From a bacterium DOLZORAL124_64_63 (GTDB lineage: Bacteria; Krumholzibacteriota; Krumholzibacteriia; LZORAL124-64-63), in the NCBI GenBank assembly GCA_002747875.1, contig PDQT01000299.1:1-37830 (forward strand): 37,830 nucleotides of DNA, read 5' to 3'. Below the pieces are notes generated by a model. The model did not search any database. It saw only the letters and a list, made by a program, of their open reading frames with translations, and had not been told where the DNA came from. The translations under genes and the position numbers were made by a program. Below, in pieces: positions 5,606 through 37,764 of this stretch (position 1 is its first letter; every line of letters starts with the position of its first letter).

Positions 5606-5632
5606 ACGGCCCCTGTGGGGCTGTTGTTTTTT
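5606..5632 (+). terminator. Rho-independent terminator after pilS
   Basis: ACGGCCCC-TGT-GGGGCTGT stem (one G-U) followed by TGTTTTTT. Confidence 0.72.
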
Positions 5633-5737
5633 GCAAAGTCCAAGATTATCGCGATTTAGGTGTAAAGCGAGGTCCCGCAGAGGCCGATATCTCCTGCATC
5701 ACTGCAAATTGCCCTTTTCGCGGACGAAGGAGAGAAC

Positions 5738-27607: not shown

Positions 27608-28924
27608 ATGAGCAGGATCAAGGTTATTATCTTGGGCGCGGCCGGGCGCGACTTCCACAACTTCAACTGTGTTTACAGAAACAACGAGGCCTACGAAGTC
27701 GTCGCCTTTACCGCCACCCAGATTCCCGACATCGATGGCCGCAAGTACCCCGCCGAGCTGGCGGGCGATCTTTACCCCGGCGGCATCCCCATCGAGGACG
27801 AGAGCAACATCGTCGAGCTGATCGCCAAGCACAACGCCGATCTGTGCGTCATGAGCTACAGCGACCGCAGCTACGAGCAGGTCATGAGCCTGGCCAGCGT
27901 GTGCAACGCCGCCGGCGCCGACTTCGCCATGCTGGGCGAGCGCGAGACCCAGCTCAAGAGCACCAAGCCCGTCATCAGCGTGGGCGCGGTGCGCACCGGT
28001 TGCGGCAAGAGCCAGACCAGCCGCCGCATCTGCGAGATCCTGCGCGCCGCCGGCAAGAAGGTCGTGGCCGTGCGTCATCCCATGCCCTACGGCGACCTGG
28101 TGGCCCAGCGGGTCCAGCGCTTCGCCGAGTACGAGGATCTGGCCAAGCACAAGTGCACCATTGAGGAGATGGAGGAGTACGAGCCCCACGTCATGGCCGG
28201 TGGCGTCATCTACGCCGGTGTGGATTACGAGGCCATCCTGCGCGAGGCCGAGAAGGAAGCCGACATCATCCTCTGGGACGGCGGCAACAACGACACCCCC
28301 TTCTACAAGCCCGACCTGCACATCGTCGTGGCCGATCCGCACCGCCCGGGCCACGAGAAGGCCTACTTCCCCAGCGAGACCAACGTGCGCCTGGCTGACG
28401 CGGTGATCATCAACAAGGTCGTCGAGGCCGAGTTCGAGAACATCGAAGCCGTGCGGGAGAACGTGCGCGGCATCAACCCCAACGCGGTGATCATCGACGG
28501 GGCCAGCCCCCTGACGGTGGAAGGCGACGTGGACCTGCGCGGCAAGAAGGTGCTGGTCGTGGAAGACGGGCCGACCCTGACCCACGGCGAGATGACCTAC
28601 GGGGCCGGCGTGGTGGCCGCCCTGCGCCAGGGTGCCGAGGAACTGGTGGATCCGCGGCCCTGGGCCGTGGGCCGTCTGGCCGAGACCTTCGAGCTCTATC
28701 CCGAGATCGGGACCCTGCTGCCGGCCATGGGCTATGGCGATGAGCAGGTGGCCGACCTGGAGAAGACCATCAACGCCGTCGAGTGCGACGCCGTGGTGAT
28801 CGGCACGCCCATCGATCTGAACCGGATCGTGAAGATCGACAAGCCCACCGTGCGTGTGAAGTACGAACTCCAGGAAATCGGTTCGCCGAACCTGGAGGAA
28901 TTGCTGGCCAGGTTCCTGGACTAG
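27608..28924 (+). CDS. P-loop GTPase-like protein related to cyclic 2,3-diphosphoglycerate synthetase
   Basis: VIILGAAGRDFHNFN, P-loop GAVRTGCGKSQTSRRI, VRHPMPYGDL, DGGNNDTPFYKPDLHIVVADPHRPGHE, EDGPTLTHGEMTYGAG. Confidence 0.8.
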   Translation: MSRIKVIILGAAGRDFHNFNCVYRNNEAYEVVAFTATQIPDIDGRKYPAELAGDLYPGGIPIEDESNIVELIAKHNADLCVMSYSDRSYEQVMSLASVCNAAGADFAMLGERETQLKSTKPVISVGAVRTGCGKSQTSRRICEILRAAGKKVVAVRHPMPYGDLVAQRVQRFAEYEDLAKHKCTIEEMEEYEPHVMAGGVIYAGVDYEAILREAEKEADIILWDGGNNDTPFYKPDLHIVVADPHRPGHEKAYFPSETNVRLADAVIINKVVEAEFENIEAVRENVRGINPNAVIIDGASPLTVEGDVDLRGKKVLVVEDGPTLTHGEMTYGAGVVAALRQGAEELVDPRPWAVGRLAETFELYPEIGTLLPAMGYGDEQVADLEKTINAVECDAVVIGTPIDLNRIVKIDKPTVRVKYELQEIGSPNLEELLARFLD

Positions 28925-28941
28925 CGATATTGTGCCGATAA

Positions 28942-28970
28942 GGTCGGCCGGTCATGAGGACCGGCCGACC
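28942..28970 (+). terminator. 12-bp hairpin between the cDPGS-like gene and sucC (terminator-like, no U-tract)
   Basis: GGTCGGCCGGTC-atgag-GACCGGCCGACC, perfect stem. Confidence 0.5.
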
Positions 28971-31108: not shown

Positions 31109-31213
31109 GCGCGCCGTGAAGCTGATAGGTCGGCCCGGTCCCTGGATCGGGCCGATCGTTGAAAATGCGCGCCGGTATTTTGTTAAGGCGCCAATCCGAA
31201 AGAAGACAAGGAT

Positions 31214-35247: not shown

Positions 35248-35484
35248 ATGGCCAGCATTCAGGAACAGGTGTACGAGATCATTCAGCGCAAGCTCACGGT
35301 GAACGCTGAGCAGATCACCCCCGAAGCTTCCTTCACCGAGGACCTCGGCGCCGACAGTCTCGACACCGTCGAACTGGTGATGGACCTGGAAGAGCAGTTC
35401 AACATCACCATTCCCGAGGAAGAGCAGGAGAACCTGAAGACCGTTCAGGACGCCATCGATTACCTCGAGCAGCATCTGGACTAG
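35248..35484 (+). CDS. acpP: Acyl carrier protein
   Basis: [20 protein letters not shown] phosphopantetheine attachment site; 78 aa. Confidence 0.98.
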
Positions 35485-35653
35485 ATCGGTTCTCGCCCGT
35501 TTCCGCCCCGTCGGGGTGGAAGGTGGGAACATGTCCACGCTGAAACTGTTTTTCCGGTCCCGTAACTGGTCAGAAGCCTGTTCAGTTGGGGACCGGAATT
35601 GGTATTCGCCGGAAGGGCCGCAGGGCCCTGCGGCCTCGTCGCGGAGGTAGGAT

Positions 35654-36892
35654 TTGAAGCACCGTAAAGTCGTCATCACGGGCCTGGGTATGGTCACCGC
35701 CGTCGGGAACGATCGGGACACTGCCTGGGAGGCCCTCAAGGCCGCCCAAAACGGTATCGGCCCCATCGAAAGTTTCGACACCGAGTCTTTCAAGGTCCAC
35801 TTCGCCGGCGAGGTGAAGGGTTTCGACCCCCATGTTTGCATGGACCCCAAGGAGGCCCGCAAGGCCGATCGCTTCTGCCAGTTGGCCGTGGGGGCCAGCG
35901 TGCAGGCCATGGACCAGGCCGACATCACCGAGGTGGAGGACCCCTACCGGGCCGGGGTGATCATCGGCAGCGGCATCGGCGGCATGCTCACCTTCGAAGA
36001 GCAGCACAGCAAATTGCTGAACCGCGGGGCCCGCGGTGTTTCTCCCATGTTCATCCCCATGATGATCGGGGACATGGCCAGCGGGCTGGTCAGCATCCGT
36101 TACGGCTTCCGGGGCGCCAACTTCTGCACCGTCAGCGCCTGTGCCAGCGGTGGTCACGCCATCGCTGCGGCCTACGACCAGATCGTGCTGGGGCATGCGG
36201 ATGTCATGATTACCGGTGGCGCCGAGGCGGCCGTGTGCCCCATGGCCCTGGCCGGTTTCGCCAACATGCGCGCCCTGAGCACCCGCAATGACGATCCCGC
36301 CACCGCCAGCCGCCCCTTCGATGCGGAACGCGACGGCTTCGTGTTGGGCGAGGGCGCCGGCATCCTGGTCATCGAGTCCGAGGAGCACGCTCTGAAGCGT
36401 GGCGCCAACATCCTGGGCTACCTGTGTGGCTACGGCGCCACCGGGGATGCCTACCACATGACCCAGCCCGACAACGAAGGCAAGGGCGCGTACGGCAGCA
36501 TGGCCCAGGCCCTGCGGGTGGCCGGTCTCAAGCCGGAGCAGGTGGGGTATATCAACGCCCACGGCACCAGCACCCACTTCAACGACAAGATCGAAAGCCG
36601 CGCCATCCGGCAGGTCTTTGGCGATCATGCCGACAAGTTGAAGGTCAGCAGCACCAAGAGCATGGTGGGGCATCTCCTGGGGGCCGCCGGGGCCATCGAG
36701 GCCGCCATCACCACCCTGGCTCTAAAAGAGGGCATCTTGCCGCCGACAATCAATTACCAGAACCCGGATGCGGAATGCGATCTCTTCTACTGCCCGAACG
36801 AGGCTGTCGCCGAAGAGGTGGATTTCGCCCTGTCGAACTCCTTCGGATTTGGCGGGCACAACGTCACGCTGTGCCTGGGCGCCGCCCGCTGA
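35654..36892 (+). CDS. fabF: 3-oxoacyl-ACP synthase II FabF
   Basis: VVITGLGMVTAVGND, TVSACASGGHAIA, NAHGTSTHFND, NSFGFGGHNV; TTG start. Confidence 0.96.
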   Translation: MKHRKVVITGLGMVTAVGNDRDTAWEALKAAQNGIGPIESFDTESFKVHFAGEVKGFDPHVCMDPKEARKADRFCQLAVGASVQAMDQADITEVEDPYRAGVIIGSGIGGMLTFEEQHSKLLNRGARGVSPMFIPMMIGDMASGLVSIRYGFRGANFCTVSACASGGHAIAAAYDQIVLGHADVMITGGAEAAVCPMALAGFANMRALSTRNDDPATASRPFDAERDGFVLGEGAGILVIESEEHALKRGANILGYLCGYGATGDAYHMTQPDNEGKGAYGSMAQALRVAGLKPEQVGYINAHGTSTHFNDKIESRAIRQVFGDHADKLKVSSTKSMVGHLLGAAGAIEAAITTLALKEGILPPTINYQNPDAECDLFYCPNEAVAEEVDFALSNSFGFGGHNVTLCLGAAR

Positions 36893-36921: not shown

Positions 36922-37764
36922 ATGGGATTGAAAGACAGTTTGCAGCAGATCCTGACCCGGCTGAGCGGCCCCGCCCCGGCCGGGTCCGGTTCTGCTCCTG
37001 TCAGCCCTTCGGACGCCACCACGGGGGGCGCTCCGGCCGTCGATTCTCACCAACTGGACGCTCTCGAGGCCAAGCTGGGCTACCATTTCCGCGACCGCTC
37101 GCTGCTGACCAACGCCCTGCTGCACCGCAGCCACATCCACGTCACCGGCCAGGACCGTGAACAGAGCAACGAACGCCTGGAATTCCTGGGGGACGCGGTG
37201 CTGGGCCTGGTCGTCAACGAGCAGCTTTTCCACCAGTACCCCGACCGCAGCGAAGGGGACTTGACGAAGATGAAAAGCCTGCTGGTCTGCGGTGCGCGCC
37301 TTTCCGAGGTGGCGACGAGCTTCGATCTGGGTATCCATATCCGGATGAGCCGCAGCGAGGCCGCCACCGGGGGACGCCAGCGCAGCAGCATCCTGGCCGA
37401 CACCACCGAGGCCCTTATCGGGGCCGTGTATCTGGATGGGGGGCTGCCCTCGGCCAAGGCCGTGATCCGGCGGGTGGTGCTGGCGGGCAGCGACAACGTC
37501 CTGGCCCGCCGCAGCCTGGGCAACTACAAGAGCCGCCTGCAGGAACTGATCCAGTCACGCTACAAGAGCCCACCGCGTTACAAGGTCCTGGATGTGAGCG
37601 GCCCGGACCATGCCCGCACCTTCCGGGTGGCCGTCACCTTCAACGGGACGGTCATGGGCGAGGGCGGCGGCCGCAACAAGAAAGCCGCCGAGCAGCACGC
37701 GGCCCGGGCGGCCCTGGAGCGTCTGGAAGAAGAACCGGATTTTCTGGACGGCCCCCAGGAGTAG
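36922..37764 (+). CDS. rnc: Ribonuclease III
   Basis: NERLEFLGDAVLGLV signature, ADTTEALIGAVYLDGG, C-terminal dsRBD (YKSRLQELIQSRYK...GGGRNKKAAEQHAARAAL). Confidence 0.96.
   Translation: MGLKDSLQQILTRLSGPAPAGSGSAPVSPSDATTGGAPAVDSHQLDALEAKLGYHFRDRSLLTNALLHRSHIHVTGQDREQSNERLEFLGDAVLGLVVNEQLFHQYPDRSEGDLTKMKSLLVCGARLSEVATSFDLGIHIRMSRSEAATGGRQRSSILADTTEALIGAVYLDGGLPSAKAVIRRVVLAGSDNVLARRSLGNYKSRLQELIQSRYKSPPRYKVLDVSGPDHARTFRVAVTFNGTVMGEGGGRNKKAAEQHAARAALERLEEEPDFLDGPQE

Follow-up and report, generated by a model that had tools for sequence, protein, structure and literature searches.

The closest described relatives of the element reported here are the SRPS stem-loops of the Clostridium cellulolyticum cip-cel operon, which have a mean folding energy of about -23 kcal/mol around processed 3′ ends and of which 28 out of 33 are devoid of a U-run (PMC4423207). 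SRPS stands for selective RNA processing and stabilisation. These stem-loops resemble the hairpin that we describe between acpP and fabF in being intercistronic and U-poor, with about -23 kcal/mol, and in lying 3′ of a gene for which high expression is needed; orthologous SRPS stem-loops also persist across species while their sequence drifts (PMC4423207), and orthologous hairpins are likewise kept here. The phylum and the operon differ, and processed ends and unequal transcript levels are a prediction for our hairpin. A second relative comes from the puf operon, a decay-blocking intercistronic stem-loop (Chen et al. 1988, cited in PMC5927463). As represented in the citing text, the puf hairpin also lies between two cistrons and is thought to block decay, with unequal expression as the result; it has a demonstration at the level of mRNA stability, whereas the evidence for the acpP-fabF hairpin is comparative.

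Escherichia coli K-12 also carries a strong hairpin at the acpP-fabF boundary, CAGGCGGUC-GUUC-GACCGCCUG. It differs from ours in being followed by a U-rich stretch, GUUUUAUCUUUUU, and its sequence is unrelated. Hairpins at this boundary are common in unrelated bacteria, often with a T-rich stretch after them, as in E. coli. As a rule, cells need more acyl carrier protein than FabF, and acpP is generally the more abundant of the two.

Here we analyze a stretch of 37,830 nt (the window), a contig of a metagenome-derived genome of an uncultured member of the Krumholzibacteriota; for its fabF, the nearest relatives with a name belong to "Candidatus Krumholzibacteriia". A literature search on the acpP-fabF gap in this phylum found nothing. 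The gap contains a conserved RNA hairpin, a cis-RNA element that is undescribed and has comparatively good support, in a phylum for which there is no genetics.

The fab locus and the folding of its acpP-fabF gap

The gene order around the gap is plsX-fabD-fabG-acpP-fabF-rnc, with the genes confirmed with NCBIfam (Table 1). The gap occupies exactly positions 35485-35653, that is, 169 nt from the acpP stop to the TTG start of fabF. An earlier note on this DNA had placed the other fab genes 18-32 bp apart, and we read the same spacings: 18 nt for fabD-fabG, 32 nt for fabG-acpP, and 29 nt for fabF-rnc. The rnc sequence at 37021-37761, at the end of the window contig, is 100% identical in protein to one at the start of a second contig of the same assembly (G000:C244:3-716), which is probably an assembly overlap.

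The gap had been described as highly structured, and this is borne out by its minimum free energy of -88.1 kcal/mol, compared with -67.7 ± 4.7 in dinucleotide shuffles (z = -4.35, with none of the 200 shuffles as low). This is the strongest z among the window gaps tested, and a second shuffle set gave z = -5.1. The raw energy alone is not special, because 28 of 942 sliding windows of 169 nt fold at or below it in this GC-rich DNA. Since low absolute energies are common in such DNA, conservation is needed to decide.

Three elements had been read in the gap from the sequence, and all of them are present: element (a), TTCCGCCCC-GTC-GGGGTGGAA at 35501-35521, with one G-U pair; element (b), whose outer stem TTCCGGTCCC (35552-35561)/GGGACCGGAA (35589-35598) pairs perfectly and encloses nested stems; and element (c), GGCCGCAGGGCCCTGCGGCC, which is indeed a perfect palindrome. 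Overlooked at that time was a longer hairpin (hairpin 1), of which element (a) forms the inner half. Element (b) is referred to below as hairpin 2.

Table 1. Positions of the genes and hairpins discussed, in window coordinates
Feature	Position	Strand	Evidence or remark
acpP (acyl carrier protein), upstream gene	35248..35484	+	NCBIfam TIGR00517, 103 bits, above cut-off
Hairpin 1, extended element (a), 18 pairs and a 3-nt bulge	35489..35530	+	MFE fold; not sequence-conserved
Hairpin 2, element (b), conserved intercistronic RNA hairpin, outer stem 10 bp, nested 7 + 3 bp	35552..35598	+	Covariation, strand asymmetry, one strong model match per genome, positional conservation
T-enriched, interrupted tail TTGGTATTC after hairpin 2	35599..35607	+	Family mean T content
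Element (c), perfect 20-bp palindrome	35616..35635	.	Sequence reading; not conserved among relatives
fabF (beta-ketoacyl-ACP synthase II), downstream gene	35654..36892	+	NCBIfam TIGR03150, 609 bits
U-poor perfect 12-bp hairpin GGTCGGCCGGTC/GACCGGCCGACC, just upstream of sucC	28942..28970	+	Comparable to element (b)
U-poor GC hairpin in the sucD-ndk gap	31128..31157	+	Comparable to element (b)

Conservation and covariation of hairpin 2

Of 58 relatives, 57 yielded an acpP gene, and we extracted the gaps downstream of it. In the window's own family (14 genera), the acpP-fabF gaps measure 87-199 nt. A hairpin occurs at the position of element (b) in 31 of the 31 distinct gaps listed, all from this one Krumholzibacteriota family; in several genera (g7, g11, g12) its sequence differs, so that identity there is by position only and with arms chosen by eye. 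The family hairpin typically reads CCCGGTCCCAT...GTGGGACCGGG and is mostly found 25-60 nt upstream of the fabF start, and the segment has a mean z of -5.32 (22 sequences). Elsewhere in the class, the gaps of other families range from 33 to 154 nt; most are shorter than 75 nt, and most lack a strong hairpin. Because sister families mostly manage with such short gaps, the hairpin is dispensable for the function of the operon.

Covariation in relatives had been named in the earlier note as one of the checks to make, and the pairs of element (b) do covary. In 20 aligned hairpins, 90.4% of the cells are paired and the covariation score is 0.339, compared with 0.208 ± 0.019 in shuffles (0/500) and at most 0.150 in slid-register controls; when each of 10 genera contributes a single sequence, 92.1% are paired, both sides have changed in 12 cells, and the score is 0.421, compared with 0.237 ± 0.033 (0/500) and at most 0.152 when slid, although the sequences are kin and p-values overstate their independence, so that these counts are supportive and not exact probabilities. 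The middle stem provides examples: one C-G pair is replaced by U-A in two genera, and the adjacent U-A pair by U-G in four. The base of the stem, CCCGG/CCGGG, is nearly invariant, a constancy that exceeds the need of a pure stability element.

The flanks of hairpin 2 behave differently. The stretch upstream reaches z = -3.1 in the window with a family mean of only -0.95, and the one downstream has a family mean of -0.34 (p = 0.18). Because these stretches are weakly structured or not structured across the family, element (a) is, by this sequence comparison, a hairpin peculiar to the lineage of this genome, and element (c) an isolated palindrome. Loss of the pairings in relatives had been proposed as one part of the grounds for refutation; those of element (b) are conserved, whereas those of (a) and (c) are not. 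The idea that the three elements constitute a single module is rejected for the same lack of conservation. What is real is a conserved RNA hairpin of a known kind, to which (a) and (c) do not belong; they are auxiliary at most.

The hairpin could in principle be part of a translated leader or small protein, as an open frame of 39 codons runs across it from an ATG at 35531, which in the window is preceded by a purine-rich stretch. The relatives have conserved no comparable frame, and their loop lengths vary freely; we reject this candidate as scarcely credible.

RNA hairpin versus DNA site

It had also been suggested that the inverted repeat is a DNA operator, bound by a regulator of fatty-acid genes. 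The repeat is perfect and its half-sites CCGGTCCC are nearly invariant, as would suit such a site, but the departures from Watson-Crick pairing are predominantly wobble-compatible, with 24 of type G-T and four of type A-C. The coding strand of the hairpin also folds better than its complement by -3.71 kcal/mol, a difference beyond composition (-0.44 in shuffles of the same composition). A DNA site would have no strand preference, while an RNA transcribed together with acpP would, so that this asymmetry identifies the element as an RNA hairpin.

The number of copies points the same way. A covariance model made from 20 hairpins gave one strong match per genome, at acpP-fabF (E = 9.4e-8 in its own genome, with the next at 0.02), and across the genome the exact inverted repeat occurs no more often than a reversed control pattern. 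Among the weaker matches of the model are hairpins at other gene ends, some of which, in other families, have T-runs and are likely terminators. A scan of the gap found no promoter-like site either, and the operator reading is very improbable. A promoter for fabF was also considered and rejected: the hairpin is followed by a TAT-like stretch in which the last T of a -10 box is mostly missing, no conserved -35 box turned up, and the scan was negative. No Rfam covariance model matched the window at its gathering score, and matches at the hairpin site were at chance level only. The earlier description of the gap as a candidate cis-regulatory RNA is partly supported: covariation, strand asymmetry and family-wide position favor a cis-acting RNA for element (b), whereas (a) and (c) are not conserved.

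Termination, processing, and the proposed role

Hairpin 2 is stable, U-poor, and located inside an operon, 3′ of acpP. We consider that it probably (at roughly 0.6) acts as an intercistronic stem-loop of the fab operon mRNA, which would give acpP transcripts their 3′ end or protect them and leave acpP mRNA in excess over fabF-rnc mRNA. Endonucleolytic cleavage or partial termination would take place downstream of hairpin 2, the hairpin would then form the 3′ end of acpP-containing transcripts and block 3′-to-5′ exonucleases, and a single transcript would yield more acpP mRNA than fabF-rnc mRNA.

How the 3′ end might arise depends on the tail. A leaky intrinsic terminator or attenuator, in which the hairpin and an interrupted U-rich tail release some polymerases after acpP and lower transcription of fabF-rnc, is possible though unlikely. 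The first 9 nt after the hairpin are enriched in T, with a family mean of about 43% compared with 20% in the rest of the gaps, and a T-rich stretch follows the acpP-fabF hairpin in E. coli, many Gammaproteobacteria and Lentisphaerae. Long reads in E. coli continue from acpP through fabF to mltG (PMC6131387), as a leaky terminator would allow. Set against this, the scan called no terminator at the site, and the tail has interrupted T's where the likely true terminators of these genomes have T-runs. Hairpin 2 has the GC-rich hairpin of an intrinsic terminator, but not the uninterrupted U-tract directly after the stem. A tail of this kind, T-enriched but interrupted, makes a full terminator unlikely, while partial termination is possible. 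One likely true intrinsic terminator in the window, in contrast to the U-poor hairpins, is the hairpin at 5606-5634, which is followed by TGTTTTTTGC.

A 3′ end at the hairpin made by processing is more likely than one made by partial termination. Genes for RNase E/G, RNase Y and RNase III are present in the genome, whereas a model search for RNase J gave no match. Since rnc lies directly downstream of fabF, the earlier note had thought of RNase III, and a processing site in the hairpin could couple fabF-rnc expression to the level of RNase III in an autoregulatory manner. The length of hairpins 1 and 2 in the window, 18-20 bp, speaks for this, but hairpin 1 is not conserved and the stem is about 12-14 bp in most relatives, which is short for RNase III. 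The gene order lends nothing to the idea, as the fabF-rnc order is kept in sister families that have no hairpin. With rnc behind fabF whether or not the hairpin is there, we do not favor RNase III autoregulation and regard it as improbable.

If the protective intercistronic stem-loop is the right reading, a distant lineage joins those that tune operon stoichiometry by intercistronic hairpins. It would also suggest that hairpins were gained repeatedly at the acpP-fabF boundary, with unrelated sequences.

U-poor hairpins in other gaps

Hairpin 2 has counterparts elsewhere in the window, one just upstream of sucC and one in the sucD-ndk gap (Table 1). A strong hairpin was found upstream of sucC in 30 of the 30 family loci examined; its sequence has largely turned over and its stems are preserved. 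In two same-genus genomes, the apparent gaps matching sucD-ndk by position contain hairpins of other sequence. We also surveyed hairpins at gene ends in about 410 kb from three genomes of the same genus, in which genes were called with a home-made program: strong ones (at most -20 kcal/mol) occur in 35 of 130 co-directional gaps versus 2 of 36 divergent gaps (p = 0.006).

The best reading of these results is that element (b) represents one case of a lineage-wide habit of strong, GC-rich, U-poor intercistronic hairpins, among which it is set apart by the unusual constancy of its stem base. It is a much more speculative, and rather doubtful, proposition that U-poor hairpins between cistrons serve this family, systematically and across the genome, as a code for operon stoichiometry and that the nearly invariant CCCGG/CCGGG base of the acpP-fabF hairpin is in addition recognized by a dedicated RNA-binding protein or nuclease. 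We also noticed that the gene upstream of sucC, with 438 codons at 27608-28924, is without an NCBIfam match at E = 1e-20.
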